The notes under the pieces were generated by a model, which saw only the letters and a list, made by a program, of their open reading frames with translations, was not told the DNA's origin and searched no databases. The position numbers were made by a program, and so were the translations under genes. This document shows, piece by piece, positions 8,677-29,362 of a stretch of 64,000 nucleotides of DNA; the stretch's first letter is position 1, and each line of letters opens with the position of its first letter. The stretch comes from Burkholderiaceae bacterium (GTDB lineage: Bacteria > Pseudomonadota > Gammaproteobacteria > Burkholderiales > Burkholderiaceae_B). The stretch is from positions 51,981 through 115,980 of the forward strand of contig JAGOAJ010000010.1 in assembly GCA_017983955.1 (NCBI GenBank), given 5' to 3'.

Positions 8677-10287
8677 ATGCGCACTCCGCCTATGCCCTAC
8701 CCGCCCACACTACCTGACAACGCTGATGCTATCAGTATGCCTGCCGAACTGACAGACATGCCACAGTGGTCGGAATTCGCTGACGCTGCCAAATCAGCCA
8801 GCATACAGACTCATGCCCTGCGCGTAATCAACGCTGCTGGCATCGCCCTGGATATCAGCGGCCAAGTCACCTCGCCACGCCTAATCAAAACCACCGCCGC
8901 ATTGCTGCAAGCACGCCACCTGGATCAGGCCCGAACCTGTTTACTTGATGGTGAAATCAGCAATCTGACCGAAGGCCGCGCCGCTTGGCATTCTGCCCTG
9001 CGTGCCCCCGCCCCCGCCGAAGAAATCGCCTTTGAGCGCGAACGCATGAATGCCTTTGTACGACAGGCGGATGCCGAACGACGCTGGCGCAATATCATTC
9101 ATATTGGCATAGGCGGCAGCGACTGGGGCGTGCGGCTATCCGTCAGCGCCTTCGGCTATGCCGGTGCCTGGCGCCAAGTACATTTCGTGGCCAATATTGA
9201 CGGCCACGCCATGCAAGGCTGCCTGGCTGGCCTGGACCCTCACGATACCTTGGTAGTGCTGGCATCCAAGTCGTTTTCGACCGCTGAAACCCTGCAAAAT
9301 GGCCAGCGTGCCATGGAGTGGTTGTTGGCCTCTGGTGTTAAAAATCCCTATAGCCAGGTCGTCGCCATTACCGCCAAACCCCAACTGGCTCGAAACTGGG
9401 GCATTCCTGACAGCAATATTTTTAAACTATGGGATTGGGTAGGCGGCCGCTTTTCACTATGGTCTGCCGTTAACCTGACGACGGCGCTGGCAATTAGCGC
9501 CGATATCGTCGCCGGCATGCAAGCTGGCGCCGCCGCCATGGACACCCACTTCAGTACAGCGCCCATCGCCGAAAACGCCCCCGTGCAGATGGCCGTAGCT
9601 GGGGTCATCAACCGTAGCCTGCTGGGCTATGGTTCACTAAATATTGCTCCCTATGATTTCCGGTTGGCCAATCTGGTGCCATATATCCAGCAACTGGAAA
9701 TGGAGTCTTTGGGGAAATCAGTCAATCTGGCGGGCAACCCAGTCGGCGTACCTACCGGCCCCGCCGTCTGGGGCATGCCGGGCACGGACGCCCAGCACAC
9801 ATTTTTTCAATGGTTGCACCAAGGCAGCGATGGCGCGCCCGTTGACTTCATCGTCTGCCAGCACCCCGACCATAATTGGGCAAACCACCATCAACGCCTG
9901 CTGGCCAACTGTCTGGCGCAGCGCGAAGCGCTGCTAAAAGGAAAGTCCTACGACACTGCTCTACAGGAAAACCTGCAAGCAGGCATGGCCTTGCCCCAAG
10001 CACAATGGCTGGCCAAACACCGCATGCACGCGGGCGGGCGGCCATCTAATTTGTTGGTGCTGTCACGCCTGTCGCCCTACACTCTGGGCGCCTTGCTGGC
10101 CCTGTATGAACACAAGGTCTTCGTCCAGGGACTGATCTGGGGCATCAACCCCTTTGACCAGTGGGGCGTGGAATACGGCAAGGTCCTGGCCAAGGGCATA
10201 CTGAAAGCGATGTCCGGTGGTGACGCCAGTAGCGACAGCCACGATGCATCTACGTCGCACTGGATAACGCAGTTTTCCCCAAAATAA
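8677..10287 (+). CDS. pgi: Glucose-6-phosphate isomerase
   Basis: 536-residue phosphoglucose isomerase, interconverting glucose-6-phosphate and fructose-6-phosphate in the cytoplasm. Family signatures are present: GIGGSDWGVRL (phosphate loop), ASKSFSTAETLQN, DWVGGRFSLWSAV (signature 1), CQHPDHN with the conserved His, and the C-terminal INPFDQWGVEYGK (signature 2, with the catalytic Lys). The site equivalent to the catalytic Glu of the animal and E. coli enzymes (WGEPGT) is Met here (WGMPGT, codon 9775-9777). The start at 8677 suits the TAAGG ribosome site at 8662-8666; an ATG at 8668 is the alternative. The 3' end overlaps the convergent GMC gene by 38 bases. Confidence 0.95.
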   Translation: MRTPPMPYPPTLPDNADAISMPAELTDMPQWSEFADAAKSASIQTHALRVINAAGIALDISGQVTSPRLIKTTAALLQARHLDQARTCLLDGEISNLTEGRAAWHSALRAPAPAEEIAFERERMNAFVRQADAERRWRNIIHIGIGGSDWGVRLSVSAFGYAGAWRQVHFVANIDGHAMQGCLAGLDPHDTLVVLASKSFSTAETLQNGQRAMEWLLASGVKNPYSQVVAITAKPQLARNWGIPDSNIFKLWDWVGGRFSLWSAVNLTTALAISADIVAGMQAGAAAMDTHFSTAPIAENAPVQMAVAGVINRSLLGYGSLNIAPYDFRLANLVPYIQQLEMESLGKSVNLAGNPVGVPTGPAVWGMPGTDAQHTFFQWLHQGSDGAPVDFIVCQHPDHNWANHHQRLLANCLAQREALLKGKSYDTALQENLQAGMALPQAQWLAKHRMHAGGRPSNLLVLSRLSPYTLGALLALYEHKVFVQGLIWGINPFDQWGVEYGKVLAKGILKAMSGGDASSDSHDASTSHWITQFSPK

Positions 10288-11860
10288 GGTCAGCGGCTTT
10301 TTCAGCAATCATCATGACCGCTGCCTGGGTGTTACCTGACACCATAGACGGCATCACCGATGCGTCTACAACACGCAGGCCTTGTAAGCCTTTAACCAGC
10401 AAATCGGGGGCAACGACGGCGTTAGCATCTGCACCCATGCGGCAGGTTCCAATCGGATGATAAATAGTCTGGCCATTATTACGTGCAAAATCCAACCACG
10501 CCTGTTGCGTAGTTATGGATTTACCCGGACTCAATTCGCTATCTACAAATGGACGCAAGGCGGGCTGGCCCACAATACGCCGCGCAATTTTCATGCCCTC
10601 GATCAGGCTATCCTGATCTTCGCTTGCCGCCAGCACATTAGGCCTGATCAGCGGCGCATCCAGCGGGTTGCCTGAACGTATATGGATGCTGCCTGTAGAC
10701 TGCGGGCGCAGTTGTGTGACCCCTATCGTCATACCGGGCTGGGTATCCAGCTTACGTTCTGCGGCATTGGCATAACTCGCGTGCACAAAGAAATACTGAA
10801 TATCCGGTGTGGCTAATTCGTGGCGTGTTTTTACAAAGCCAAAGTTCAAGCCTGTGCCTAAGGTAAGTATGCCGGTGCGCTTCAGGTAATACTGTGCCAC
10901 CTCGCGTCCCAAGCGCCAGCCTTGACTCATTTCGTTCAGGGTCACTGTGTTCTTGACCCGCCAGTTCATGCGTGTCGCAAAGTGATCTATGTAATTGGAG
11001 CCAACTGCAGGCAAAGCATGCTGAACCTTAAGGCCTGCAGCTTGAATGGTGGCGGGGTCACCTATGCCGGACAGTTCTAGTATTTGCGGTGTTTGTATCG
11101 TTCCTGCGGCCAATATGACTTCGGCGCGCGCCTTGATGCTGATGGTTTGCTGGCCCTGACGATACACCACGCCCGTGCAACGCTTATTGTCCAACAACAG
11201 GTGCTGCACATGCGCGCCGGTTCTGACAGTTAGGTTAGAGCGATGACGTGCAGGTGTTAAATACCCATCTACCACGCTCCAGCGACGCCCGGCCTTCTGT
11301 GACACCTGATAGTAGCCAAAGCCTTCTTGATCGTCCTGGTTGTAATCCGCGTTCAACACCTGCCCGTCTTCTTGCGCAGCGGCTAAAAAAGCGCTGGACA
11401 CAGGAAAGCGTTCTTTGACCTCTTCAATATGCATAGGACCATTAGTGCCGCGCCCTAGGCCACCTGGTGCGTAATTTTCTAGCTTTTCAAAATAAGGCTT
11501 GATGTCATCATAGCCCCAGCCGGTCGCCCCTTCGTCCTGCGCCCAGCGATCGAAATCTTGGGGCTGTCCACGCACATAGATCATTCCGTTGATCAAGGTA
11601 GATCCGCCTAAGCCTTTACCCCGGGGTATGGAAATAGTCCGGCCATGCACGTTATCTTCCGGCTCGGTTGCAAAGCGCCAGTTAAAACGTGGATGCGTCA
11701 ACAACTTGCTAAAGCCGGCAGGAATAGGCACCCAAAACCCTTTACCGTCGCCACCAGCCTCTAGTAACAGCACGGTGTGTTCACCAGAAGCCGTTAGCCG
11801 GTTTGCCAAAATACACCCTGCGGTACCTCCACCCACAATAATGTAGTCAAAGGTGTCCAT
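10250..11860 (-). CDS. GMC family oxidoreductase (choline/alcohol dehydrogenase type)
   Basis: 536-residue FAD-dependent glucose-methanol-choline oxidoreductase that oxidises a primary or secondary alcohol. Visible: the N-terminal FAD-binding fold DYIIVGGGTAGCILANRL, GMC signature 1 (GKGLGGSTLINGMIYVRG), signature 2 (AAGTIQTPQILELSGIG), and the C-terminal active site YHPIGTCRMG with the catalytic His plus SGNTQAAVMMIAE with the second catalytic Asn. Last gene of the long minus-strand unit, starting 2 bases after the AroE-like stop. It resembles BetA/AlkJ-type dehydrogenases that feed electrons to quinones, but its alcohol substrate is unknown. No signal peptide, so cytoplasmic or peripherally membrane-bound. 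Confidence 0.92.
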   Translation of the reverse strand: MDTFDYIIVGGGTAGCILANRLTASGEHTVLLLEAGGDGKGFWVPIPAGFSKLLTHPRFNWRFATEPEDNVHGRTISIPRGKGLGGSTLINGMIYVRGQPQDFDRWAQDEGATGWGYDDIKPYFEKLENYAPGGLGRGTNGPMHIEEVKERFPVSSAFLAAAQEDGQVLNADYNQDDQEGFGYYQVSQKAGRRWSVVDGYLTPARHRSNLTVRTGAHVQHLLLDNKRCTGVVYRQGQQTISIKARAEVILAAGTIQTPQILELSGIGDPATIQAAGLKVQHALPAVGSNYIDHFATRMNWRVKNTVTLNEMSQGWRLGREVAQYYLKRTGILTLGTGLNFGFVKTRHELATPDIQYFFVHASYANAAERKLDTQPGMTIGVTQLRPQSTGSIHIRSGNPLDAPLIRPNVLAASEDQDSLIEGMKIARRIVGQPALRPFVDSELSPGKSITTQQAWLDFARNNGQTIYHPIGTCRMGADANAVVAPDLLVKGLQGLRVVDASVMPSMVSGNTQAAVMMIAEKAADLILGKTALSSAT

Positions 11861-11862
11861 GA

Positions 11863-12675
11863 TTATTGGTCCTTACCCATCATGAACTGGGCCATCAGGC
11901 GTATTTGCTGGTCCAGCATATGCCGCCCGTAATGCACGACACAGCCTTTTTCTTGTGCGGCCAACAATAACGGCGTCTGCTCGGGCTTCATGATGATTTC
12001 AGCCACCACCATGCTGGGCTCCAGGTAGGCGGGATCCAAAGGATACGGATCTTCCGGCTTCATCCCCAAGGAAGTCGCATTGATGACCAGGTCATAGCCT
12101 TTATCGGCAGCCGGTTCAGCAGCCTGTATGACAGCGTTAGGGAAATGTGTTTTGGTTCGGTCCACCAGTTCCTGGGCCCGCGCCAGGGTACGGTTAAATA
12201 CGGTTAGCGATGCAACACCATCCTGAACCAACGCAAAGGCAATGGCCGCGGCAGCGCCTCCGGCACCCAATAACAGCACACGCTTGCCTGCGGGGTCGTG
12301 GCCCTGCTCTTTTAAGCCGTTTAAAAAGCCCACACCGTCGAGCATGTCGCCAACCAAGCGCCCATCGGCGGTACGTCTAACAGTATTGATCGCCCCTATC
12401 GCATTACCTGTATCGCCCAGTTCGTCGCACAGTGCGGCCGCGTCTGTTTTATGCGGAACCGTAACGACAAAGCCTTGCAGGTTCTTCATGGCACGCAAGG
12501 TCTGGAATACATTGCTTAGCTTATCTGCAGGTACCTGCATGGGGACCAAAACCCCGTTGATACCCTGCTGGGCAAAGTAATCATTGAGAACTTCGGGGGT
12601 TCTTACCTGCGCAATCGGATCTGCCAAAATTGCAAAAAGCTGGGTAGTGCCAGTTATGGCCGGTATCATTTTCAT
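11863..12675 (-). CDS. Shikimate dehydrogenase-like (AroE family) oxidoreductase, divergent
   Basis: About 270 residues with the two-domain AroE fold. The NADP-binding loop is LLLGAGGAAAAIAFAL. Conserved catalytic residues are Lys76 (VTVPHK), Asn97 (AINTV) and Asp113 (DGVGF). The substrate-anchoring SxS pair of true AroE, which binds the shikimate carboxylate (NPIAHSKSP), is replaced by V-R-T (DPIAQVRTP, residues 19-27). The usual GDNTDG is GDMLDG. It therefore probably oxidises a related polyol or cyclic hydroxy acid rather than serving aromatic amino acid synthesis (inference). It sits inside a catabolic unit, overlapping the upstream SDR stop and followed 2 bases later by the GMC gene. The start is ambiguous among 12687, 12675 and 12669. 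Confidence 0.85.
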   Translation of the reverse strand: MKMIPAITGTTQLFAILADPIAQVRTPEVLNDYFAQQGINGVLVPMQVPADKLSNVFQTLRAMKNLQGFVVTVPHKTDAAALCDELGDTGNAIGAINTVRRTADGRLVGDMLDGVGFLNGLKEQGHDPAGKRVLLLGAGGAAAAIAFALVQDGVASLTVFNRTLARAQELVDRTKTHFPNAVIQAAEPAADKGYDLVINATSLGMKPEDPYPLDPAYLEPSMVVAEIIMKPEQTPLLLAAQEKGCVVHYGRHMLDQQIRLMAQFMMGKDQ

Positions 12676-13433
12676 GTCATCATCCAACCGCCGGCCACGT
12701 CCACAACCTGCCCCGTTACAAACGAGGCTTGGCTAGATGTTAAGTAGCAACACACGTCCGCTACTTCTGTGGCAGTGCCTAGACGGCGTAAAGGGGTGTT
12801 ATCAATAACGGCCTGATTCGCCTGCGGCGCTACCGTTTTCAGCAAAGGCGTTGAGATACGACCAGGCGCCAGCGCATTCACCGTAATTCCATGCGGTCCT
12901 AATTCACCGGCCAGATGCCGCGTGAATCCAATCAAGGCGGCCTTGGTCGTGCTGTAATGCACGCCCACAAGATCCAAGTAAGCTTTGCCTGCGACCGAGG
13001 ATGTAGATACTATGCGCCCAAAGCCGCGCTCCACCATGCCCGGTGACAGGATGCGAACGAAATTAAATGCGCTGTGCAGATTCACGTCAGTGACGCGATG
13101 CCACTCGGCAGGGTCCATTTCATACACGGGAGCAGGCTGCCCATCGTGTTTGGGCGAGATGCCTGCATTGTTAACCAGCGTATCAATAGGCCCAAGCTCA
13201 GTTTCGATGGCTAGCGCCGCCGTTTGGCACGCAGAAAAATCAGCCACATCAGCGGCAGCAAAACATACAGCGTGGCCTTGCTGCTTCAAGGTGTGCGCCA
13301 GTTCCTGGCCCTGCTGCTGGTTAATATCAACAATACCTACAGCAGCACCTTCTTCAAGGTAACGCCTGACTATGGCTTCGCCTATACCACCAACACCGCC
13401 TGTGACCAGTACGACTCTATCTTTGTGACTCAA
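12672..13433 (-). CDS. SDR family NAD(P)-dependent oxidoreductase (FabG-like)
   Basis: 253-residue classical short-chain dehydrogenase. Rossmann motif TGGVGGIGEA, structural NNAGIS, and catalytic Ser in STSSVAG with Tyr and Lys in YSTTKAA are all in place; the C-terminus FVTGQVVDVAGGW is typical. Asp in VGIVDIN at the end of the second strand suggests NAD preference (family rule, inference). It starts one base after the stop of the truncated quinone-oxidoreductase remnant and overlaps the AroE-like gene, so it is tightly embedded in the minus-strand catabolic unit. Likely oxidises a hydroxyl of the pathway intermediate; substrate not predictable. Confidence 0.92.
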   Translation of the reverse strand: MSHKDRVVLVTGGVGGIGEAIVRRYLEEGAAVGIVDINQQQGQELAHTLKQQGHAVCFAAADVADFSACQTAALAIETELGPIDTLVNNAGISPKHDGQPAPVYEMDPAEWHRVTDVNLHSAFNFVRILSPGMVERGFGRIVSTSSVAGKAYLDLVGVHYSTTKAALIGFTRHLAGELGPHGITVNALAPGRISTPLLKTVAPQANQAVIDNTPLRRLGTATEVADVCCYLTSSQASFVTGQVVDVAGGWMMT

Positions 13434-13434
13434 T

Positions 13435-13695
13435 TTAGCGCTCCGCTATGGCCAGCATAATTTTGCCAATATGCTGGCTACTTTCCATTAGCGCATGTGC
13501 CTGACCCACTTCATCCATAGGGAAAACGGAATGAATCACGGGTAAGCAGCTGCCCTGTTCAAGCAAGGGCCATACCTTGGACTGCATAAGAGCAACCAAG
13601 TCGGCTTTTTGCTGACCGCTACGCGCCCTAAGGGTAGAGCCCGTGAAGGTCAAGCGCTTAAGCATAATGGGCATGGCGTCCAAGGACACGCGCTT
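13435..13695 (-). pseudogene. 3' remnant of a quinone oxidoreductase (zinc-free MDR/PIG3-like) gene
   Basis: An 86-codon open stretch whose translation matches the C-terminal end of NAD(P)H:quinone oxidoreductases of the medium-chain family: MLKRLTFTGSTLRARS, then PVIHSVFPMDEVGQAHALME and SQHIGKIMLAI. In intact homologues this follows about 240 residues with the Rossmann domain, which are absent. Similarity begins at the stop codon of the upstream gabD gene (13694) and the remnant ends 1 base before the next SDR start. The intact gene probably once sat coupled between the two. The frame continues upstream only as an out-of-phase reading of gabD. A deletion or recombination at the gabD end explains it best. 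Confidence 0.75.
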
Positions 13696-15148
13696 AAATA
13701 CCGCCCATGCACAAGTACTTGATAACCAGGTAGTCATCCAAGCCATACTTGGACCCTTCACGGCCAACGCCCGACTGTTTGACGCCGCCAAACGGCGCGG
13801 CTTCGTTGGACAAAATACCGGTATTAATACCGACCATGCCATACTCTAGCGCTTCGGCAATACGCCATACACGACCGATATCCCGGCTATAAAAATAGGC
13901 GGCAAGGCCGAACTCGGTATCGTTGGCCATGTTTACAACGTCGCTATCGTCCTTGAAGCGGAATAAAGGCGCCAGCGGCCCAAAGGTTTCTTCCTTGGCT
14001 ACTTTCATCTGCGACGTTACTCCGGCGATAACTGTAGGCTGGAAGAAGCTACCGCCCAGCGCATGTGCCTTACCGCCGGTTAACACCTTGCCGCCTTGCG
14101 CCAGCGCGTCGGCGATATGCTCTTCTATCTTCTGAACAGCATTGCCGTCGATCAGTGGACCTTGCGTCACGCCAGCTTCCAGGCCATTGCCTATCTTGAG
14201 CTTGCCCACCGCAGCAACCAACTTTTCCGCAAATGCGTCATAGACAGCGTCGTGTACGTAAAAGCGATTCGCGCAAACGCAGGTTTGCCCGCTATTGCGA
14301 TACTTACTGGCCATGGCGCCGTCAACAGCGGCATCAAGATCAGCATCGGCGAACACAATAAACGGCGCATTGCCGCCCAGTTCCATAGACACTTTCTTGA
14401 TAGAACTTGCGGTTTGCTCCATCAGCAAACGCCCCACTTCAGTCGACCCGGTAAAGGTCACTTTACGGACCGTGGGGTTGCTGGTCATTTCACCGTCGAT
14501 GGCGCTGGCCGAACCCGTCACTATCGAAAATACGCCTGCCGGCACGCCAGCTTGCTCAGCCAACACGGCCAAAGCCAGGGCCGAATACGGTGTTTGCGTG
14601 GCAGGTTTGACCACGATCGGGCAACCAGCGGCCAACGCAGCGGCGACCTTACGGGTAATCATGGACGACGGGAAGTTCCAGGGCGTGATGGCTGCGCACA
14701 CGCCTATAGGTTCTTTGATGACCACAATGCGACTATTGGGCGACGAGCTGGGTATGGTGTCACCATAAGCACGTTTACCTTCTTCGCCATACCATTCCAG
14801 GTAGGACGCGCCATAGGCGATTTCGCCGCGCGCCTCGGCCAGCGGCTTGCCTTGCTCTATCGTCATGATGATGGCCAGGTCGTCGGCGTTTAGCATCATC
14901 AGATCAAACCAGCGACGCAAAATTACAGCACGCTCTTTTGCCGTTTTTTGACGCCACCCAGCCCAGGCAAGGTCTGCCGCTTCAATGGCATGGCGGGTCT
15001 CACCCGCGCCCATTTTCGGAATGGTACCTATGACGTCGCCGGTAGCCGGGTTGGTGACATTGATGGTTGCGCCGTCGCTGGCGTCGCACCACTGGCCATC
15101 GATATAACATTGCTGACGGAACAGCTCTGGATTCTTTAACGAGAACAT
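13694..15148 (-). CDS. gabD: Succinate-semialdehyde dehydrogenase (NADP-type, GabD) family
   Basis: 484-residue aldehyde dehydrogenase closely resembling GabD, which oxidises succinate semialdehyde to succinate. Visible: ITPWNFPSSMITRKVAAAL, the general base Glu256 in SMELGGN, catalytic Cys290 with redox partner Cys292 in SGQTCVCANR, and the C-terminal NEAAPFGGVKQSGVGREGS that marks the GabD subfamily. The C-terminus IKYLCMGGI is family-typical, so the gene is complete although it abuts a gene remnant. It lies 53 bases after the E3 gene in the catabolic unit. In context it may oxidise a semialdehyde released by upstream steps, so true succinate semialdehyde is likely but not certain. Confidence 0.9.
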   Translation of the reverse strand: MFSLKNPELFRQQCYIDGQWCDASDGATINVTNPATGDVIGTIPKMGAGETRHAIEAADLAWAGWRQKTAKERAVILRRWFDLMMLNADDLAIIMTIEQGKPLAEARGEIAYGASYLEWYGEEGKRAYGDTIPSSSPNSRIVVIKEPIGVCAAITPWNFPSSMITRKVAAALAAGCPIVVKPATQTPYSALALAVLAEQAGVPAGVFSIVTGSASAIDGEMTSNPTVRKVTFTGSTEVGRLLMEQTASSIKKVSMELGGNAPFIVFADADLDAAVDGAMASKYRNSGQTCVCANRFYVHDAVYDAFAEKLVAAVGKLKIGNGLEAGVTQGPLIDGNAVQKIEEHIADALAQGGKVLTGGKAHALGGSFFQPTVIAGVTSQMKVAKEETFGPLAPLFRFKDDSDVVNMANDTEFGLAAYFYSRDIGRVWRIAEALEYGMVGINTGILSNEAAPFGGVKQSGVGREGSKYGLDDYLVIKYLCMGGI

Positions 15149-15201
15149 GCTGTCTTCCTTTGCGCACTACCGTGCTTATTTTGATTTACGTAAGCTACAT
15201 T

Positions 15202-16596: not shown

Positions 16597-16600
16597 AGAC

Positions 16601-17851: not shown

Positions 17852-18329
17852 TCCTTTTTTGCAGATCAGAACGATAGCTTGCTATATCTTCATACTCAAC
17901 CAGTTCCAGTATGTTGCCTTCAGGATCGCGGCAGAAGGCCAGATATACGCCAGGACGGACCTCGACACGTTCATTGCCGGTCATGAACTCGGTCCCTGCT
18001 TCAAGCAAGCGTGTAATCGCCGCGCTAATATCCGCAACGATAAACGTCAGGTAGACCGCGTTAGGCTGGTCCAATATGTAGGTTGGTGTCGGATTTGCGG
18101 CCACAGGCACATTCGGCGCCAGCAGTTTGATGCGCTCGCCAAACGAGGTTTGCAGGCGAACCACTGTGTAGCCGTCTGCAGACATAGCCGCTGCCGCTGA
18201 CTTTTCAGCGGGGACTACAAATTCGCTGACAAAAGTAAAATCTAAACACTCTTCATAAAAACGTCGTAAGCCGGGCAGGTCACGGCAGGCGATACCCAAC
18301 TCCAGGGGCGCGGTCATTTCAAATTTCAT
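17844..18329 (-). CDS. VOC superfamily (glyoxalase/dioxygenase-fold) protein
   Basis: 161-residue vicinal-oxygen-chelate protein. It shows the paired beta-alpha-beta modules: LGIACRDLPGLRRFYEECLD in the first, and VYLTFIVADISAAITRLLEAG with the terminal CRDPEGNILELVEY in the second. The conserved metal-ligand-type Glu is in the last strand. Such proteins act as glyoxalases, epimerases, isomerases or ring-cleavage enzymes, and the sequence alone does not decide. A clear ribosome site (AAGGAGAA) precedes the ATG. It lies between the E1 and E2 genes, so it probably handles the E1 substrate, for example isomerising it or detoxifying a 2-oxo aldehyde (inference). Confidence 0.85.
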   Translation of the reverse strand: MKFEMTAPLELGIACRDLPGLRRFYEECLDFTFVSEFVVPAEKSAAAAMSADGYTVVRLQTSFGERIKLLAPNVPVAANPTPTYILDQPNAVYLTFIVADISAAITRLLEAGTEFMTGNERVEVRPGVYLAFCRDPEGNILELVEYEDIASYRSDLQKRND

Positions 18330-18341
18330 GGCGTTCTCCTT

Positions 18342-20534
18342 TTAAGCGCTTGCGCCTTGATTGCGCATTGCCTGTTTCACACCTTCGGCCACTTCTTCGG
18401 TACGAGCGCAAGCAGCACGTTCTAGTACCTTGGAAATGCTAGGCGATGCTTCACCACCGGTAACACGCTGCACTGGCTGATCCAACCAATCAAAAAAGCG
18501 CTGCTGAATTTCGTCAGATAGCCAACCACCATAAGACGTACCCTGCGCACCCTGCTCTACGATCAAGACATTATTGGTCTTGCGTATGCTGTCGCCTATG
18601 GTGTCCCAGTCAATACTGGCCCGGTCAAGCCAGCGTAGATCGATTACATCGGCATCCACCCCGGTTTGTTCTACGGCTTCCAGCGAGTGCGCCACCATGG
18701 ACAGATAGGTCAAGATAGTCAGGTCTTTACCGCTGCGGCGCACAGCCGCCTTGCCAAAGGGGGTCTGGTAGTCCAGGTCGTCCACCGGGGCAGGTCCACT
18801 AGAGGCATAAAGATCTACGTGCTCTATGACCAGCACGGGATCTTTAAGCGCCAGTGCAGCGTTCATCAAGCCTACATAATCAAAAGGCGTAGACGCGGCA
18901 ACAATACGCCAGCCTGGGCTGGTCGCAAAAATGCCGGCTGGATCCATGGAGTGCTGCGAGCCATAGCCTGTGCCCATGGCCACCTTGGTGCGCAACACCA
19001 GCGGCATATCGATATCGCCGCCAAACATATGGCGTGCCTTGCCTATCTGGTTAAACACCTGATCGGCGGCAACCCACATGAAATCGGGATACATAAACTC
19101 GACCACGGGCTTGAAGCGCCCATCCATCGCCATTCCGCCGCCCAAACCTACAAATGCGTTTTCACTGATGGGCGTACCCAGAACACGGTCCGGAAACTTA
19201 TCTTTCAGGCCACGCGTAGCGCCGTTGGTGCCGCCCTTGAGTCGGTGTATATCTTCGCCCATGACGACAATACCGTTATCGGTTTGCATACGGCGGTCCA
19301 TGACATCGGCAACTAAATCAATGAATTTGCGATTTTCCAGCTTGCCCTTGAAGGTGTCCTGCTCTTCGGTGCGCGCCCCTGCCAGTTCACTGAGATCACC
19401 GCGCATACCTACATCTCGAAAACCCGGCTCGGGCCAAAGCTCAGGACGTATGCGTTTTTTACCTGCTTTACTGCTGGGATCGATTTCGGTCAGAGCAGCA
19501 ACAGCCTGCGCCATGGACGACTGCATGCGGGCGCGCAGATCAGCGATGTCTTGTTCGGTGATCAACCCGCGTTCCTGCATACGGCGCCCCAGAATATCCA
19601 GCGGATCACGTTGACGCCAAGCCTGTTCTTCTTCTTTGCTGCGGTAGCCAAAGGCGCTGCCCGGAAAACCGCCATTCTGGTGGAAAAAGCGGTAGACATC
19701 AGCTTCGATGATGGTTGGCCCATTACCAGCCCGCATATGCGCCAGCGCTTGTTCCATCGCAAGATGAACCGCCAACGGATCCATACCATCTACTTTCCAG
19801 CTAGGAATATTAAAGGCCGAACCACGCGCCGATAGCCGTGGCTCGGCGGTCGCTTCTTCGACATTCGTGGAAACAGCGTAACCATTGTTCTCGATAAAGA
19901 AACACAAGGGGAGCTTCCAGACTGCAGCCAGATTCATGGTTTCCAGCACCGAGCCGATATTCACTGCGCCATCGCCAAAATAGGTGACAGCGACTGCATC
20001 GGTACCGGCATGCTTGTGCGCCCAGGCGGCACCTGCCGCTAGCGGAACCCCGCCCCCGACGATCGCATTGGTGCCCAAGACTCCCGCGTCGTCCCAGCGC
20101 AAGTGCATAGAGCCGCCTCGACCCCGGCAAAAACCCTGTGACAGACCCAAAATTTCAGCCAAGGTACGCTGCAACAAAACGTCCACTTCAGACGAAAGTC
20201 CTGCCCTGGGGTCAATACCGGCGGGCGTGACATAGCCCAGCGCTTTACTTAAAAACTGATGGTGACCACGATGCGAACCGTTGATCTGGTCAGCCGCCGT
20301 CAAAGGCACGATGGAACCTGCCGCCCCGCCTTCTTGACCTATGCTGGAGTGCGCGGGCCCATGAACCAACCCTTCCATGGCAAGCTCGACCACGGTTTCT
20401 TCAAAGGCGCGAATCAAATGCAAATGCGACAACAAGGTGCCCAGTAACTTGGGGTCGGCCTGCTGCCAATCGGCTTCGGTAGTACGCAACTCCACCCATT
20501 TGGAAGCAGGGGACAGCGCAATAATTTCTGACAT
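18342..20534 (-). CDS. Fused E1 alpha-beta subunit, ThDP-dependent 2-oxo-acid/acetoin-type dehydrogenase
   Basis: 730-residue protein joining what are usually two E1 polypeptides. The alpha part (about residues 30-370) has GRGGSMHL and the ThDP-binding motif GDGAVNIG (from 187) to ENNGYAVS (217). The beta part (from about 400) has VMGEDIHRLKGGTNGATRGL, the TPISENAFVGLGGGMAM segment with the ThDP-activating Glu, VEFMYPDF, and a transketolase C-terminal domain (VLIVEQGAQGTSYGGWL). It decarboxylates or cleaves a 2-oxo acid or alpha-hydroxyketone and acylates E2 lipoate. The start at 20534 is set by CGGAGAT upstream; a longer frame to 20600 runs into the previous gene. Neighbours E2, E3 and VOC follow in order. 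Substrate class undetermined. Confidence 0.92.
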   Translation of the reverse strand: MSEIIALSPASKWVELRTTEADWQQADPKLLGTLLSHLHLIRAFEETVVELAMEGLVHGPAHSSIGQEGGAAGSIVPLTAADQINGSHRGHHQFLSKALGYVTPAGIDPRAGLSSEVDVLLQRTLAEILGLSQGFCRGRGGSMHLRWDDAGVLGTNAIVGGGVPLAAGAAWAHKHAGTDAVAVTYFGDGAVNIGSVLETMNLAAVWKLPLCFFIENNGYAVSTNVEEATAEPRLSARGSAFNIPSWKVDGMDPLAVHLAMEQALAHMRAGNGPTIIEADVYRFFHQNGGFPGSAFGYRSKEEEQAWRQRDPLDILGRRMQERGLITEQDIADLRARMQSSMAQAVAALTEIDPSSKAGKKRIRPELWPEPGFRDVGMRGDLSELAGARTEEQDTFKGKLENRKFIDLVADVMDRRMQTDNGIVVMGEDIHRLKGGTNGATRGLKDKFPDRVLGTPISENAFVGLGGGMAMDGRFKPVVEFMYPDFMWVAADQVFNQIGKARHMFGGDIDMPLVLRTKVAMGTGYGSQHSMDPAGIFATSPGWRIVAASTPFDYVGLMNAALALKDPVLVIEHVDLYASSGPAPVDDLDYQTPFGKAAVRRSGKDLTILTYLSMVAHSLEAVEQTGVDADVIDLRWLDRASIDWDTIGDSIRKTNNVLIVEQGAQGTSYGGWLSDEIQQRFFDWLDQPVQRVTGGEASPSISKVLERAACARTEEVAEGVKQAMRNQGASA

Positions 20535-20568
20535 GAGATTTATCTCCGGATGGGATAGATACGATGAT

Positions 20569-21393
20569 TTAGATATAGCTGTAGGCAGACCAGCCGCCAT
20601 CGGCCACGATGACTTGACCGTTGATGAACGAAGCGTGTTCTGACGCCAGAAACAAGGCTAAGGTCGCAATTTCATGAGACTCGCCCAACCGGCCTGACGG
20701 CGTGCGCTTGGTCAATGCATCAAGATCCATGCGTCCTGCAGCAACCAATTGGTCGACTAGCGCCGTATAGACATAGCCTGGCGCAATGGCATTGACCCGT
20801 ACTCCTCGCTTGCCCCATTCAATCGCCAACACTTTGGTCAGCATGCTGACTGCCGCCTTGCTGGTGCAATAAGCCGCGCGTTCGGGGGCCGCTACCTGGC
20901 CATACATGGAAGACATATTAAGAATGACGCCATGGCCCTGGTCCAGCATGCCCTGCGCCACAGCTTGGGCGCAGTAGAAAACCCCATTCACATTGATATC
21001 CATGGCCTTGCGCCAATCGGTGCACGACAGTTCCAGCGTAGGCTGATTCATGGAAATACCGGCATTGTTCAGCAGAATATCAATGCCGCCGAACGCTGCT
21101 TGGGCAGCCGCTATTGCGGCTTGCACGGCCTGCTCATCAGTAACTGAGGCAACATAGGTCTCTATAGACAGCCCAGGAAATGACGACAATAACGTTGCAC
21201 GGCAGTGCTCCAGGTCCTGCGCACTGATATCCAATAAAGCCAGCTTAGCGCCAGTGGCGGCGAAGGCTTGCGCCATGGCAAAGCCTATGCCATTGCCCGC
21301 ACCCGTAATAAATACCACCTTATTGGCAAGCTCCAAAAAAGACTTGCCTTGTGCCAAGCGCGCAAGCACGTCGGCAGACATGGTATTTGTCAT
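20569..21393 (-). CDS. SDR family oxidoreductase
   Basis: 274-residue classical short-chain dehydrogenase with an N-terminal lead of about 25 residues before the Rossmann motif TGAGNGIGFA. NNAGISMNQP, MSSMYGQ and catalytic YCTSKAA are intact, and the C-terminus INGQVIVADGGW is typical. LLDIS after the second strand places Asp for NAD preference (inference). The start at 21393 gives an ATGA overlap with the livF stop; the upstream ATG at 21405 is less likely. The gene is coupled to the importer on one side and lies 34 bases before the fused E1 on the other, so it likely forms the E1 substrate by oxidising a hydroxyl. Confidence 0.92.
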   Translation of the reverse strand: MTNTMSADVLARLAQGKSFLELANKVVFITGAGNGIGFAMAQAFAATGAKLALLDISAQDLEHCRATLLSSFPGLSIETYVASVTDEQAVQAAIAAAQAAFGGIDILLNNAGISMNQPTLELSCTDWRKAMDINVNGVFYCAQAVAQGMLDQGHGVILNMSSMYGQVAAPERAAYCTSKAAVSMLTKVLAIEWGKRGVRVNAIAPGYVYTALVDQLVAAGRMDLDALTKRTPSGRLGESHEIATLALFLASEHASFINGQVIVADGGWSAYSYI

Positions 21394-22115
21394 ACTGCTA
21401 ACCAATCCTTCAGTAATTGTGGGTTGCTGGTAAGCTCGTCAGGCGTGCCGCTAAAGACGACATGACCATGCCCCAGCAAGCAGACATGGGTGGAAATTTT
21501 CAAGGCTATGGTCAGCTTTTGCTCAACCAAAATGACCGACACGCCGCGCCTATGAATATCTTGGATGGCCTCGCCAACAATGGTCACGACTTTAGGCGCC
21601 AGGCCTTCGGTAGGCTCGTCAATCAATATGATGTTGGGGTTGCCCAGCAATGACCGACATATGGTCAGCATCTGCTGCTCGCCCCCAGACAGATTGCCCG
21701 CCTGGGTATTGCGCCTTTCTTTCAGCCGTGGAAAATAATCAAACATTTGTTCGATAGTCCACTCTGGCGCGTCGGCGCGCTTGGCCTGCATGCCCATGAC
21801 CAGGTTTTCATCAACAGTCAGGTTGCCAAACACTTCCCTTTCTTCGGGTACGTAGGCAACGCCAGCACGAGCAATGGTGTAGGGCTGAGTACCTGCAAGA
21901 TTCTTGCCGTTTAGCAACACCTGCCCGCCTGTGGGCGGCACCAAGCCCATAACGGCCTTGATAGTAGTGGAACGCCCCGAACCATTACGCCCTAGCAGAC
22001 TCATGACCTCACCCCTGGCCACATCGAAACTCACGCCCTGCAGAATATGACTTTTGCCATAATGCGCATGCAAATCACGTACCGATAACAACGGTGCTTT
22101 GGATGTCTGGCTCAT
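21390..22115 (-). CDS. livF: Liv-type ABC transporter ATPase, LivF family (Walker A Arg variant)
   Basis: 241-residue LivF-type ATPase energising the importer encoded here. The signature motif is NLSGGEQQMLTICRSLL and Walker B is IILIDEPTEGLAP. The Walker A loop reads GRNGSGRST, with Arg48 where ATPases normally have the phosphate-binding Lys. The same change occurs in the other LivF of this window, so it is not a sequencing slip. Its partner LivG (upstream, 4-base overlap) has a normal Lys, giving an asymmetric pair. The 3' end overlaps the SDR start (ATGA). Confidence 0.93.
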   Translation of the reverse strand: MSQTSKAPLLSVRDLHAHYGKSHILQGVSFDVARGEVMSLLGRNGSGRSTTIKAVMGLVPPTGGQVLLNGKNLAGTQPYTIARAGVAYVPEEREVFGNLTVDENLVMGMQAKRADAPEWTIEQMFDYFPRLKERRNTQAGNLSGGEQQMLTICRSLLGNPNIILIDEPTEGLAPKVVTIVGEAIQDIHRRGVSVILVEQKLTIALKISTHVCLLGHGHVVFSGTPDELTSNPQLLKDWLAV

Positions 22116-22891
22116 GCCGATACCTCCGTGCCCAAATAAGCTTCCTGTACTTGGGCATTGGCCCGTATTTCATCAGGCGTACCGGTGGCGATAATTTCGC
22201 CATATACCAAGACACTGATACGATCGCTCAAGGAAAAAACCACATCCATATCGTGTTCTACGATCATCAGAGATCGCCCCTTGGTCAGTTCACGGATCAG
22301 CCCTACGGTATATTCGGTTTCCTCGCGCGACATACCTGCCATGGGCTCATCCAGCAGCAGCACTTTCGGATCCGACGCCAAGGCCATGCCAATTTCCAGC
22401 GACCGCTGCTCCGAGTAAGACAGTTCCCCACCTAAGGTGTCGCTATGCTGAGTAAGGCGCAGTTGCTCGAGCAATTGCTCGGTTTCTTGCGTTACCTTTC
22501 TGGAGCGCGAAATTGGCCGCCAAAAGTTGTACTGCAAGCCATAGCGACGCATCACGCCAAAGCGCAAATTTTCAAATACGCTTAGGCCGGGGAAGATATT
22601 GGTGATCTGAAATGATCTAGCCATGCCCAGGCGGTTAATGTTGCGGGCCTCCAGTCCCTGTATAGGCTGATTCTCTAGCAAGATCTGACCGGACGAGGGA
22701 CGGAACTGGCCTGAAATCAAGTGAAACAAGGTCGATTTTCCAGCACCATTGGGACCAATGATGGCGTGGCGTTCACCCTCGCGAAGCTCTAAATTAACCC
22801 CGCGAATAATGTGCGATTCGCCAAACGACTTGTGCACATCGACCAATGTCAGTATCGACTTGCTATCAGATGGTGTTATTGGGGTATTCAT
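22112..22891 (-). CDS. livG: Liv-type ABC transporter ATPase, LivG family
   Basis: 259-residue LivG-type ATPase with normal Walker A (GPNGAGKST), signature LSYSEQRSLEIGMALA (the C-loop is LSYSE rather than LSGGQ, common in LivG) and Walker B LLLDEPMAGM with the His switch VEHDMDVVFS. The long insert between Walker A and the signature (SFQITNIFPGLSVFENLRFG) is characteristic of LivG. Four-base overlaps with both livF and livM show tight coupling. It pairs with LivF in the inner-membrane complex. Confidence 0.94.
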   Translation of the reverse strand: MNTPITPSDSKSILTLVDVHKSFGESHIIRGVNLELREGERHAIIGPNGAGKSTLFHLISGQFRPSSGQILLENQPIQGLEARNINRLGMARSFQITNIFPGLSVFENLRFGVMRRYGLQYNFWRPISRSRKVTQETEQLLEQLRLTQHSDTLGGELSYSEQRSLEIGMALASDPKVLLLDEPMAGMSREETEYTVGLIRELTKGRSLMIVEHDMDVVFSLSDRISVLVYGEIIATGTPDEIRANAQVQEAYLGTEVSA

Positions 22892-24123
22892 GCTGCTTGC
22901 TCCTCACGCAGAGACTGCCATTTCCGGCTACCAAAAAGCACCACCACCACACCGGCCACCAGCAGCAGCACAGGTAGCAGCCAGGTTGACACTGCGCCAG
23001 GTAGCCATTGCTGACCGAAAAGCGCAACAGCGGGCCAGTCAACGCCATCTGCCAACAACGACTGATAGTCCTGATCCAGTATGCGTGCCAAGAACTCAAC
23101 CAGAAACACAAAGCCGCCAGCGGCGATCAAGCAGCCCACTATCCATGTGGACAGTACCCGCAACAGGGTAGCCCGCGTATGCTTGCTTCGATTACTGTTC
23201 CACCAGCTGCCTATGCTAAATAACCCAGCGGGCATAAACATCATGACCAATACGAAAATAACGCCTTGGTAGAGCAGCCAGGTACGAGTCATATCGGACA
23301 CTGCGTATCCGAAGAAAGTCATCACTGCAGCGCCCAACGCCGGGCCGAAGAATGCACCTATCCCACCGATATACGAGTTAAGCACTACCTGCGCCGACAA
23401 GTGCATATCGAAAATGACATAGTTGGCCGCCTCGTTATTCAAGGCTAGCAAAGCACCCGCAACACCCGAAAAAGTGGCTGACACAGTGAACACCATCAGA
23501 CGTAAAACGTGCACGTTGTAGCCCATAAAACGCAGACGATGGCTGTTTTCACGCAAGCCTTGGCATAGACGTCCCAATGGCGTACGTGTCAAAAAATACA
23601 GCAAAGCCAGGGATACCAATACCCATGCCAAGGTCAGGTAGTAAACATCGGTAGCCGTGGCAAACTCAATGCCCCAAACAGGCATACGCATAGCTGACAC
23701 ACCACCTTCACCACCGAAAAAATCTTTCAGGTGAGGAGCAAGCGAATGCAGCAGCTCGGCCAATGCCAGCGTAATCATGGAAAAGTAAACACCGCTACGC
23801 TGCGTAGAGAACCAACCGGCTGCCAGACCCAGCAAGCAACCTGCGAAGGCGCCCACGAGTGGCAGCAAGGGTGCCGGAAACAAGCCTGCACCGCCCAACG
23901 CGTTCATGGCATGGATAGTGGCGAAGGTGCCTATGCCAAAATAAGCGGCATGACCGAACGACAGCATGCCGCCCTGCCCCGCCAGTACATTAAAAGCACT
24001 GGCGAACAAGGCTGCGATCAACATTTGAATGGCCGCATTGACTAGCGATGTCGACATAAATGTAGGCACAGCCAACAAAAACGCCACCAGCAGCAATAAG
24101 ACCCATATACGTAAAAATTTCAT
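22888..24123 (-). CDS. livM: Liv-type ABC transporter permease, LivM family, with C-terminal extension
   Basis: 411-residue LivM permease. The core matches the family: LAGQGGMLSFGHAAYFGIG, coupling loop TPLGRLCQGLRENSHRLRFM, and GGIGAFFGPALGAAVMTFFG. It is about 90-100 residues longer than the two other LivM proteins of the window (311 and 323). After residue about 310 it adds a basic loop (SNRSKHTRATLLR) and two further hydrophobic segments (WIVGCLIAAGGFVFLVEFLA; LLPVLLLVAGVVVVLFG) around a periplasmic-looking stretch. The extension might contact the binding protein or a partner (inference). It overlaps livG by 4 bases and follows livH by 5. Confidence 0.92.
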   Translation of the reverse strand: MKFLRIWVLLLLVAFLLAVPTFMSTSLVNAAIQMLIAALFASAFNVLAGQGGMLSFGHAAYFGIGTFATIHAMNALGGAGLFPAPLLPLVGAFAGCLLGLAAGWFSTQRSGVYFSMITLALAELLHSLAPHLKDFFGGEGGVSAMRMPVWGIEFATATDVYYLTLAWVLVSLALLYFLTRTPLGRLCQGLRENSHRLRFMGYNVHVLRLMVFTVSATFSGVAGALLALNNEAANYVIFDMHLSAQVVLNSYIGGIGAFFGPALGAAVMTFFGYAVSDMTRTWLLYQGVIFVLVMMFMPAGLFSIGSWWNSNRSKHTRATLLRVLSTWIVGCLIAAGGFVFLVEFLARILDQDYQSLLADGVDWPAVALFGQQWLPGAVSTWLLPVLLLVAGVVVVLFGSRKWQSLREEQAA

Positions 24124-24128
24124 AGCGA

Positions 24129-25070
24129 CTACTCCCTGTTGCCCATCAAGCCTTGAGGCCTGAACAGCAATACCAGCAGCATCAACACGAACGGTATTGT
24201 GGCCGCCAGCGATGACACTTTCAGGGTTAGTAAGCCACCGATCTGCTCAGCCCAATCCCGAACTCCGAATACGCCAAATACATCGGCAAGGCTGTAGTCG
24301 ACACCCACTGCAAATGAAGAAATCAAGCCTATGAGTAAAGAAGACAACATGGCGCCTTCCAGGGAACCCAGACCACCGACCACCACAACCACGAACACCA
24401 ACACGCCTAGTTCCAGCGCCATATTGGGATTGGTGGTGTAGAAAGCACCGGCTACCGCGCCAGCCAGGCCGGCCAGGGCGGCGCCAACGCCAAACACGCC
24501 CATGAAAACCATGGGTACGTTGTGACCTAGCGCCTCGACCATACGTGGACGGTAAATTGCCGAACGAACCACAATGCCGACTCGGGTCTTGGTCAGCAGC
24601 AAATAGATCAGCACAAACATCAGTATTGAAGTACCGCCGATCAACAGCCGATAAAAGGGATAGTCCGCGCCAAATAGCGGGAACGCCGAGAAGCTTAATG
24701 ACTCGGGCACACGATAATCAACGGGGTAATTACCGTAGAAAAGCTTGATCACTTCCGTGATGATGAATGACAAGCCAAAGGTCAGGAGCAACTGGTGACC
24801 ATGTCCATACCGATGAACACGACGCAACATATAGCGCTCAACTAACGCACCTAAAACACCAACGATCAATGGCGAAATAATGATGGCAGGCCAGAAACCC
24901 ATAACCTTCTGAAGACTGTACGCCAGGTAGGCGCCAACCATATAGAACGACGTATGGGCAAAGTTAAGTACGCCCATCATCCCGAAAATCAGGGTCAGGC
25001 CGGCCGAAACCATGAACAGCAGCAATCCATAGATCGTGCCGTTCAATAAAGAGACTGTAAAAAATTCCAT
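24129..25070 (-). CDS. livH: Liv-type ABC transporter permease, LivH family
   Basis: 313-residue LivH permease with eight or so hydrophobic helices. Hallmarks: AGLTLIFGMMGVLNFAHTSF near the N-terminus, the coupling loop TRVGIVVRSAIYRPRMVEAL, and VVVVVGGLGSLEGAMLSSLL. The C-terminus LLFRPQGLMGNRE is typical. It follows the binding-protein gene by 69 bases, which contain a strong hairpin at 25096-25125. It forms the membrane channel with LivM. Confidence 0.93.
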   Translation of the reverse strand: MEFFTVSLLNGTIYGLLLFMVSAGLTLIFGMMGVLNFAHTSFYMVGAYLAYSLQKVMGFWPAIIISPLIVGVLGALVERYMLRRVHRYGHGHQLLLTFGLSFIITEVIKLFYGNYPVDYRVPESLSFSAFPLFGADYPFYRLLIGGTSILMFVLIYLLLTKTRVGIVVRSAIYRPRMVEALGHNVPMVFMGVFGVGAALAGLAGAVAGAFYTTNPNMALELGVLVFVVVVVGGLGSLEGAMLSSLLIGLISSFAVGVDYSLADVFGVFGVRDWAEQIGGLLTLKVSSLAATIPFVLMLLVLLFRPQGLMGNRE

Positions 25071-25095
25071 AATTGCACCATATAGGCAATCGGGA

Positions 25096-25125
25096 CGGCA
25101 GCACTGGCCGAATGCCAGGCTGCCG
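25096..25125 (-). promoter_or_regulatory. Strong hairpin between binding-protein and livH genes
   Basis: The two arms CGGCAGC and GCTGCCG enclose an inner stem CTGGC/GCCAG with a CGAAT loop and a single bulged A, giving 12 base pairs in 30 bases. No U-run follows on the minus strand, so it is more like an mRNA-protecting or partial-termination hairpin than a full terminator. Such structures after binding-protein genes are known to raise the binding-protein message over the membrane genes, as in malE-malF. Confidence 0.6.
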
Positions 25126-25139
25126 CTGCGTGCCCGTTG

Positions 25140-26378
25140 TTAGGCAGGACGCTTCATTTTGCAGGTAGCTTCGACCGGATTGGCGGCCTCTTCACCCGTA
25201 AAGCGCTTGACGACCTCGAAACCCATATCGGTACCGTCGACTTTGTATTTCACGTCGCGAGATACTTTAGAAACCACGATAGGCAGCAATACCTGGTGGT
25301 CATCATTACGTATGATGGTCTCACCCATGGGGGTGTCAATTTTTACGTTTTCCAGATTCAACGCCAGCTTGGTCACATTCAGCTTGCCGTCCTCAGGCTG
25401 GGTTGCCTTCAGTGCTTCACCCAGCATTTGCAGGCCAAATACTGTTTGTGGCTCAATAAATGTGGGGTAATGACCAGTTTTAGCCTTGTAGTCTTCAGCG
25501 AACTGCTCGGCTTCGGGGCTGACTGCAATGTTGTAGGCATGCGAAATGTAGTGGCCTAAAGCGATGTCGCCAGCGTTGGCCAAGTTACCGACCTGATCCA
25601 GGAACACGGTACCAAAACGCACTTTCAGGCCTGCATCACGAGTGGCTTTCATCAACAGCAGCAGGTCATTGGACCAGTTGCCGGTCAAGACAGTTTCGGC
25701 GCCACTGGCTTTGATTTTGCTGACGTAAGGGGAAAAGTCCTGGACTCTATTGACGTCATGCAAGGTGCTTTCTACTACCTTGTAGTTACCAATCGAGGCG
25801 AAGTCCTGGATGGATTTCTCCATGTCCGCACCCCATGAATAGTTCTGGTTCATGGAATAGACTTTAGTGCCCAGCTCGTTGGCCTCTTGCATTGCCATGA
25901 CCAGGGTCTTGACCCGGATAGGAGCATTGGTCGTAAAGCGGAAATGGTAAAAGTGGCATTTGTCGCCAGTCAGTTCCAGCGCTTCACCACCCATATTCAG
26001 AAAGAGGACTTCCTTACCAGGGTTGCGTATATTGTATTTACGTACATCCTCGGTAATTTGGCCTGATACAGCCGACGAGGAACCCTGAATAATAATCTGG
26101 GCACCATCGGCAATAGCTGCTTTGACCTTGTCGGACGCGCCAGCGGGGCCACCCTGGTTATCGTATTCAGCCACTTCAATGGCTTCGCCATTCCAGCCGC
26201 CGGCATCATTGAGATTACCGATTTGATATTTAGCCGCGGCGCGATACATCAACCCTGTTGAAGCCTGTGGCCCCGACAAGGTTTCTACTAGCGCCACCTT
26301 AAGAGGGGCGGCTTGGGCGGAAGTTACCGCAACAAGTCCACACGCCGATAGCAGCAAGGCAAGTTTTGTCTTATTCAC
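25140..26378 (-). CDS. Periplasmic substrate-binding protein of the Liv-type importer
   Basis: 412-residue type I periplasmic binding protein. A GTG start at 26378 is chosen: GGAG lies 8 bases before it and it directly begins a signal peptide (NKTKLALLLSACGLVAV, cleavage after AQA). An ATG at 26417 would put a polar stretch in front. The mature part begins PLKVALVETLSGPQASTG and contains FLNMGGEALELTGDKCHFYH and YISHAYNIAVSP. The resemblance is to binding proteins of aromatic or aliphatic carboxylate importers, but the ligand cannot be assigned. First gene of the 16 kb minus-strand unit; its promoter region holds the paired GntR-type palindromes. Confidence 0.9.
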   Translation of the reverse strand: MNKTKLALLLSACGLVAVTSAQAAPLKVALVETLSGPQASTGLMYRAAAKYQIGNLNDAGGWNGEAIEVAEYDNQGGPAGASDKVKAAIADGAQIIIQGSSSAVSGQITEDVRKYNIRNPGKEVLFLNMGGEALELTGDKCHFYHFRFTTNAPIRVKTLVMAMQEANELGTKVYSMNQNYSWGADMEKSIQDFASIGNYKVVESTLHDVNRVQDFSPYVSKIKASGAETVLTGNWSNDLLLLMKATRDAGLKVRFGTVFLDQVGNLANAGDIALGHYISHAYNIAVSPEAEQFAEDYKAKTGHYPTFIEPQTVFGLQMLGEALKATQPEDGKLNVTKLALNLENVKIDTPMGETIIRNDDHQVLLPIVVSKVSRDVKYKVDGTDMGFEVVKRFTGEEAANPVEATCKMKRPA

Positions 26379-26480: not shown

Positions 26481-26618
26481 GGCAGGAAATTCTACTCAAG
26501 CAAAAAAACAGTGTCAACAAACTCTGTGGAAAACTCGGACGACAACTCAAGAAAACCAAACAAACCATTTAAAATCAACAAATTACGGACGATAGGGGTA
26601 AACCCTAGAGGGAAAGTT

Positions 26619-29349: not shown

Positions 29350-29362
29350 GTCTGACTCCTGA

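Follow-up and report, generated by a model that had tools for sequence, protein, structure and literature searches.

Do the 14 open genes that run in one direction across much of this 64,000-nucleotide stretch of a Burkholderiaceae genome (hereafter the window) form a single catabolic unit, and what would that unit consume? The host genome is 3.3 Mb in size and 94.5% complete, and the window corresponds to positions 51981–115980 of its contig. Judged by the thiamine diphosphate (ThDP)-dependent dehydrogenase E1 of the unit, the nearest named relatives among the best 80 of 533 E1 relatives are Alcaligenaceae bacterium CGII-43 (94%) and Pollutimonas bauzanensis (91%). The 14 genes and a divergent regulator pair probably serve to import a hydroxylated compound, oxidize it and cut it into coenzyme A (CoA) esters by an unusual fused complex. 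We propose, with a rough probability of 0.6, that the whole set is one GntR-regulated, inducible catabolic operon for uptake, hydroxyl oxidation, CoA-forming C–C cleavage and semialdehyde oxidation. Its basis is the genes present, their conservation and co-occurrence, a candidate operator and a full set of E1, E2 and E3 domains. This conserved catabolic operon has no description in the literature searched; queries by gene-set name, by chemistry and by 5-ketofructose reductase found none, with most subscription papers outside their coverage, in line with the original prediction, which had recognized no described pathway.

Gene content and order

Open reading frame (ORF) listing and family searches placed 14 open genes and a single remnant between 26378 and 10250 of the minus strand, in the order SBP-LivHMGF-SDR1-fused E1-VOC-E2-E3-GabD-(qor tail)-SDR2-AroE-like-GMC (Table 1), where SBP is a periplasmic binding protein and SDR a short-chain dehydrogenase. 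All genes named in the original prediction were found as it had placed them. With the best start codons, the gaps are 69 bases between SBP and LivH, 5 between LivH and LivM, −4 at both LivM-LivG and LivG-LivF, −16 at LivF-SDR1, 34 at SDR1-E1, 12 at E1-VOC, −8 at VOC-E2, 4 at E2-E3, 53 at E3-GabD, 0 between GabD and the qor tail, 1 between the tail and SDR2, −4 at SDR2-AroE-like and 2 at AroE-like-GMC. The earlier statement that junctions overlap or measure under 60 bases holds for all except SBP-LivH, giving an upper bound of 69; once the qor tail is disregarded, the GabD-SDR2 gap becomes 260 bases. The GMC gene and the convergent pgi gene overlap at the end of the latter. At the opposite end, the genes for SDR3 and a GntR/FCD regulator diverge from the unit and span 26619–28141 on the plus strand. 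We count them as members of the unit, near which they lie in 48 and 43 of 50 full loci (defined below), respectively. As to extent, the original prediction (10250–26378) had the minus-strand genes right and overlooked this divergent pair and the candidate operator.

A fused E1 of a distinct group in a complete complex

The complex resembles known 2-oxo acid dehydrogenase complexes (pyruvate, branched-chain) in the ThDP domains of E1, the lipoyl, E3-binding and acyltransferase domains of E2 (all three Pfam domains were found) and a dedicated E3. It differs in that the alpha and beta parts of E1 are fused, and in the importer and polyol-type dehydrogenases nearby. Moreover, E1s of this class usually carry a GHS-type active-site loop, whereas the loop here, HQ[NS]...GS.F.YR, is present in 62 of 63 non-redundant E1 sequences, those 62 being 46–100% identical; the lone exception, a 34% relative (L011; L and G numbers denote loci and genomes), has DHS. 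The fused E1 resembles pyruvate and branched-chain E1s but falls below all four NCBIfam cut-offs listed (TIGR03182, 257.5 versus 393.85; TIGR03181, 201.1 versus 411.35; NF008854, 222.5 versus 454; NF006667, 221 versus 321), and an unfused E1 alpha/beta pair is encoded separately in the host genome (L117). These three features, the loop, the missed cut-offs and the separate pair, indicate at the sequence level that E1 forms a distinct group. The complex looks complete, since E2 passes the pyruvate-type cut-off (TIGR01349, 462.7 versus 445) and E3 passes TIGR01350.

An Aco-type system for acetoin or 2,3-butanediol would have the same E1/E2/E3 architecture, and AcoABC is alike in the expected cleavage of an alpha-hydroxyketone to an acyl-CoA and an aldehyde. 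SDR1 and SDR3 also score sizeably on the meso-2,3-butanediol dehydrogenase model (213.5 and 216.5 bits; cut-off 270), along with more than 100 other SDR models. However, E2 is not AcoC-like (81.1 bits on NF011457, cut-off 307), and such a system, which has neither the several extra oxidoreductases nor the importer, would seem to give no role to the AroE-like, GMC and importer genes. Acetoin use is thus unlikely, and we give it little credence.

Fused E1-E2 genes also occur near amidase, RidA, Xaa-Pro-peptidase-type or flavin reductase genes on a Paenarthrobacter plasmid (L097), in Salipiger (L103) and in Streptomyces (L105), hinting at a use in the breakdown of N-containing compounds.

Conservation and co-occurrence

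The contigs of the best 80 E1 relatives were scanned, and the 50 loci spanning 21 kb or more were taken as full loci, with a neighbour scored as present at ≥40% identity over half its length. E2 was found in all 50, SDR3 in 48, SDR1 in 46, E3 in 44, GntR in 43, VOC in 36, SBP and LivHMGF in 33 each, AroE-like in 30, GabD in 12, SDR2 in 8, GMC in 7 and the qor tail in 6. The cassette recurs more than by chance, because the flanking pgi and MFS genes appear in one locus each. None of the 50 combines importer, GabD, AroE-like and GMC as the window does. E1 relatives extend to other proteobacteria and actinobacteria, and annotated plasmid copies with parts of the set occur in Caballeronia, P. oryzihabitans, Phaeobacter, Rhodovulum and Paracoccus albus. 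In five loci from metagenome-assembled genomes (L042, L049, L051, L052, L058), AroE-like and GMC lie upstream of E1 on one strand, with a second Liv importer in the stretch.

The host genome itself holds a second, diverged set (L115, C6:243000-262900) with GMC (45%), GabD (57%), two SDRs (38% each), E1 (46%), E2 (44%), LivG (38%) and LivF (41%), in addition to GntR, SBP and LivH recognized by eye, so this genome has drawn on the design at least twice. Hydroxymethylglutaryl-CoA-type lyase and CaiB-like genes were also seen there by eye.

As GMC is rare within 10 kb of E1, a family survey was made of 200 genomes in 43 genera, with thresholds of E ≤ 1e-250 for E1 and E ≤ 1e-180 for GMC. E1 is present in 49 genomes, GMC in 61 and both in 47 (Fisher p = 1.4e-30); only two genomes have E1 without GMC (G001, G209). 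The AroE-like gene is present in 70 genomes, or 64 once the 10 weakest of 78 rows are left out. E1 and GMC occupy the identical 16 of 43 genera, the chance of two identical sets being 3.8e-12 with genera taken as independent. In 29 of the 47 genomes the two share a contig and are no more than 25 kb apart, always on the same strand (29/29), with GMC downstream in 19 and upstream in 10; they are farther apart in six genomes (five on opposite strands, at more than 1 megabase) and on different contigs, some of them short, in 12. In 60 of 61 genomes (exception G179) the AroE-like gene lies no more than 2 kb upstream of GMC on the same strand, and in 58 no more than 115 bases.

The genome-neighbourhood search proposed with the original prediction did recover the shared order. 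Five fetched genomes of genus g30 (G030, locus L135; G086, G152, G197 and G208, L160–L163) carry SBP-LivHMGF-SDR1-E1-E2-E3-Qor-SDR2-AroE-like-GMC, 13 genes in all on the same strand; SDR3 and GntR adjoin the SBP end. No GabD was found in these five loci; the same holds for VOC in L135, L160, L161 and L163, but L162 carries VOC between LivF and SDR1. Elsewhere, one strand of G092 (L158) holds E1-E2-E3, a second Liv importer, Qor, SDR2, one more SDR, AroE-like and GMC, and in G010 (L137) E1-E2, this second importer, Qor and SDR2 are likewise on a single strand, followed on it by AroE-like and GMC. In the sister genome G001 (L116) the order is E3-AroE-like-pgi, with GabD, SDR2 and GMC absent at that place.

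One pathway or two

Several observations weigh against a single operon. Only 7 of the 50 full loci have GMC at a distance of about 10 kb or less from E1, and 14 of the 61 genomes with GMC have no E1; each half can thus exist by itself. At least three other g30 genomes (G133, G168, G183) have no E1 at the survey threshold. GabD and VOC are variable members, given their counts in the full loci and their absence from that place in g30, and because the surveyed genomes are related, the p values overstate independence. Passing TIGR01349 would fit an acetyl product, but equally plain 2-oxo-acid chemistry.

The main rival is accordingly that two pathways lie on one strand, joined by rearrangement: an E1-complex pathway (importer A, SDR1, SDR3, VOC, E1–E3) and a polyol or acid oxidation pathway (SDR2, AroE-like, GMC; elsewhere also Qor and importer B). 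In relatives a Liv importer of its own accompanies the second set, the binding protein of that importer being present in 22 of 31 fetched stretches; a GntR of its own adjoins the set in Rhodovulum, P. albus and Pacificitalea, no E1 is annotated in the 25–28 kb stretches of three plasmids that carry it, and the genomes with GMC and no E1 have it alone. The qor remnant also marks a deletion or rearrangement. Nevertheless, the co-occurrence persists in the 18 of 47 genomes where the genes are distant or on other contigs, the genus sets of E1 and GMC coincide, and AroE-like and GMC stand directly upstream of SDR1-E1 in L151–L153, L042 and L052. We regard the two-pathway split as a doubtful though serious alternative.

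The idea that two modules had recently fused, losing the second importer, was dropped because g30 has the same order. No close copy of the second importer's binding protein was found in the host genome (best 27%), and a loss from this genome is possible.

The importer and its binding protein

Two PF02653 permeases, two ABC ATPases and an adjacent Peripla_BP protein, all over the Pfam cut-offs, make up a full Liv/HAAT importer set. Related porin genes lie upstream of E1 in five Pseudomonas loci (L034, L044, L047, L056, L098), that of L098 being of the OprD family, whose members prefer small acids; the porin points weakly to a small acid substrate. The closest solved structure to SBP is that of Brucella ovis 4xfk/7jfn (E = 3.2e-166), and there the cleft held acetate or nitrate from the crystallization solution (PMC11376275), which would fit an anionic SBP ligand, if weakly and by analogy. 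A threonine soak gave no binding, for which the authors consider that buffer ions may be responsible (PMC11376275).

These data bear on the uptake and breakdown of branched-chain amino acids, for which a Liv-type importer and an E1 resembling pyruvate and branched-chain E1s would be expected. Yet family searches found no aminotransferase in the unit, the SBP relative did not bind threonine, with the above limit on that soak, and the genome has its own unfused E1 pair beside a fused E1 that misses the listed cut-offs. This explanation is unlikely as well, and in our judgement very remote.

The identification of 4xfk as Pseudomonas PA4913, with PA4907-PA4913 as a characterized relative, was rejected, since the paper gives Brucella ovis. 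The host genome has 53 matches to PF02653, the Liv-type permease family, in its 3.3 Mb and was judged importer-rich.

Oxidoreductases, the VOC protein and the qor remnant

In shikimate dehydrogenase AroE, a Lys/Asp pair is catalytic and the two serines of the HSxS motif bind the shikimate carboxylate. The AroE-like protein shares the fold family of AroE, YdiB and 5-ketofructose reductase and the pair, as K80 and D117 (42/42 sequences), whereas HSxS is replaced, mostly by H-V-K/R-T (V28 in 40/42, T30 in 39/42; QVRT in the window). It also stays below TIGR00507 for shikimate dehydrogenase (188.4 versus 200.2) and thus lacks both that score and the shikimate carboxylate motif. In a tree of 51 rows, the long-branched window copy pairs with that of the sister genome (100/99). 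Relatives of about 50% identity adjoin altronate-dehydratase-family and dihydrodipicolinate-synthase-family genes in Paracoccus denitrificans and Azospirillum, a sugar-acid context. The relative 5-ketofructose reductase (chain 7cok) works on a keto sugar, on which another putative shikimate dehydrogenase was inactive (PMC7954740). These neighbourhoods and this kinship favour a polyhydroxy substrate over shikimate, and the cyclic substrate that the AroE-like and GMC genes had been taken to hint at is not established. Within the E1 cassette, the gene takes differing positions in Achromobacter, Herbaspirillum, Pseudomonas, Cupriavidus, Acinetobacter and Phaeobacter, suggesting that it was retained through rearrangement.

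GMC falls below the choline dehydrogenase BetA cut-offs (TIGR01810, 476.3 versus 732.1; NF002550, 565.9 versus 605), and GabD passes those for succinate-semialdehyde dehydrogenase, NF008415 and TIGR01780 (740.1 versus 646.35). The metal ligands of the VOC fold are H/E/H/E. Across 26 VOC orthologues, the expected ligand positions, placed by eye, are the invariant E10, K68, Y93 and E142, which makes a metal enzyme unlikely. Actinobacterial VOC proteins beside E1 (L094, L095, L097, L102) retain H/E/H/E, again by eye.

The predicted qor remnant was confirmed: 13692–13444 on the minus strand has 65% identity to residues 243–325 of the L135 Qor (331 residues from the chosen Met, in a 373-residue frame). 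The homology begins at 13692, at the GabD stop, and residues 1–242 have no significant match within window positions 13001–16000. By this alignment, the remnant is the last quarter of a qor gene that is whole in relatives; in g30 it is uninterrupted, with 325–334 codons matched without a stop in L160–L163. The start may have been lost by deletion, or GabD may have been inserted later. The closest Qor relative elsewhere in the host genome is 51% identical.

Proposed pathway

We infer co-transcription and regulation, and also the chemistry with the sequence and direction of its steps, which would run as follows. The Liv-type ABC importer would bring in a small hydroxylated compound, and SDR1, SDR2, SDR3, AroE-like and GMC, with Qor in relatives, would oxidize its hydroxyls to an alpha-hydroxyketone or 2-oxo acid. 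The fused-E1 complex would then break the C–C bond adjacent to the new carbonyl, E2 passing the acyl group via lipoate to CoA and E3 producing NADH, and GabD would oxidize the leftover aldehyde or semialdehyde. A similar scheme in the original prediction is borne out as to the importer, the fused-E1 complex and the co-occurrence of AroE-like, GMC, SDR2 and Qor, which form one same-strand run in several genera, whereas its chemistry is only compatible with the genes.

The enzyme set points towards a polyhydroxylated compound and away from shikimate, branched-chain amino acids and acetoin. We tentatively name such a compound, possibly an acid, as the substrate; a linear one is as likely as a cyclic one. 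More speculatively, and rather doubtfully, the substrate might be polyhydroxylated and perhaps cyclic, with the fused-E1 lipoate complex cutting an alpha-hydroxyketone to an omega-oxo acyl-CoA, or to an acyl-CoA and a semialdehyde, and an AroE-fold enzyme recruited as polyol dehydrogenase, while an alphaproteobacterial version would cut with an acetolactate-synthase-family ThDP enzyme. If so and if the substrate is cyclic, the cut by the E1 complex would be a ring opening. Such a version may be seen in an S. meliloti plasmid module (L109; ADH-Qor-acetolactate-synthase-like-Liv-FabG-AroE-GlcD-GMC, where ADH is alcohol dehydrogenase), which shares Qor, the Liv importer, a FabG-type SDR, AroE-like and GMC with the set. 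It differs in having no E1 complex annotated in 27.6 kb and an acetolactate-synthase-family ThDP enzyme instead; its ADH is weakly like threonine and scyllo-inosose dehydrogenases. L107 and L113 also hold modules with such a ThDP enzyme, Qor, Liv, FabG, AroE-like and GMC.

Given E1 and GMC in 16 of 43 family genera and E1 relatives beyond, the substrate would seem to be a common one in the environment, with a breakdown that the searched papers do not describe. The set also marks two families, one of fused E1s with a loop of their own and one of AroE-like proteins of a non-shikimate kind. Record names mislead for both: E1 is filed as pyruvate dehydrogenase or MFS transporter, and AroE-like as shikimate dehydrogenase.

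The divergent control region

Between the SBP and SDR3 genes, a perfect 14-base inverted repeat lies just downstream of a promoter-like site, TTGACA-17-TAGAAT, the top-scoring match of the region, for which score and position alone argue. The repeat, a candidate GntR operator, contains two TTGTCTGATAA-type sites, a motif picked after the repeat had been seen. With every site counted on both strands, 17 of 54 loci carry one or more ahead of SBP, whereas the rate across all loci is about 0.027 hits per 490 bases; 15 of 52 is the fairer figure, because L116 and L134, which both bear a site, duplicate the genomes of L016 and L093. In Achromobacter, the site is present upstream of SBP in L062, L092 and L093; none was found there in the remaining Achromobacter, four Herbaspirillum and four Pseudomonas loci. 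In Herbaspirillum and most Achromobacter the AroE-like gene precedes SBP, so the stretch tested there is not the divergent region. The general GntR consensus is TNGTNNNACNA; it is not enriched in the window (6 versus 9.4 expected), and the candidate operator is not an exact match to it. Promoter-like matches in the region number 7 against a mean of 15.1 in shuffles, and terminator-like ones 29 against 20.9; these scans are of no help on internal starts or stops of the unit.

Table 1. Genes and control elements of the unit, in window coordinates
Feature	Position	Strand	Basis
GntR, FadR/GntR-family regulator with FCD domain	27425..28141	+	GntR 78.2, FCD 83.5 bits; 43/50 full loci
SDR3, short-chain dehydrogenase	26619..27356	+	ORF listed from GTG 26511, ATG 26619 more likely; 48/50 full loci
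Sigma-70-like promoter TTGACA-17-TAGAAT	26489..26517	-	11/12 matches
Candidate GntR operator, perfect 14-base inverted repeat AACTTGTCTGATAA / TTATCAGACAAGTT	26443..26480	.	10 bases separate the arms
SBP, periplasmic binding protein	25140..26378	-	Probable GTG start 26378; PF13458, 221.3 bits
LivH permease	24129..25070	-	PF02653, 109.5 bits
LivM permease	22888..24123	-	PF02653, 91.1 bits
LivG ATPase	22112..22891	-	PF00005 111.2, PF12399 47.2 bits
LivF ATPase	21390..22115	-	PF00005, 110.5 bits
SDR1, short-chain dehydrogenase	20569..21405	-	Family searches; 46/50 full loci
Fused alpha-beta E1, ThDP-dependent dehydrogenase	18342..20534	-	ORF to 20600, ATG 20534 more likely; loop HQ[NS]...GS.F.YR
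VOC-fold protein, apparently without usual metal ligands	17844..18329	-	Family search, alignments
E2, lipoyl, E3-binding and acyltransferase domains	16601..17851	-	Family searches
E3, dihydrolipoyl dehydrogenase	15202..16596	-	TIGR01350, 526.7 bits versus cut-off 408.8
GabD-type semialdehyde dehydrogenase	13694..15148	-	NF008415, 847.3 bits versus cut-off 828
qor remnant, last quarter of quinone oxidoreductase gene	13435..13693	-	Alignment to L135 Qor; uninterrupted in L135, L160–L163
SDR2, FabG-type dehydrogenase	12672..13433	-	Family searches
AroE-like dehydrogenase	11863..12675	-	ATG at 12675; family searches
GMC-family FAD oxidoreductase	10250..11860	-	Family searches

Beyond the regulator, thiolase and 3-hydroxyacyl-CoA dehydrogenase/enoyl-CoA hydratase genes (window 28153–31798) adjoin GntR on the opposite strand.

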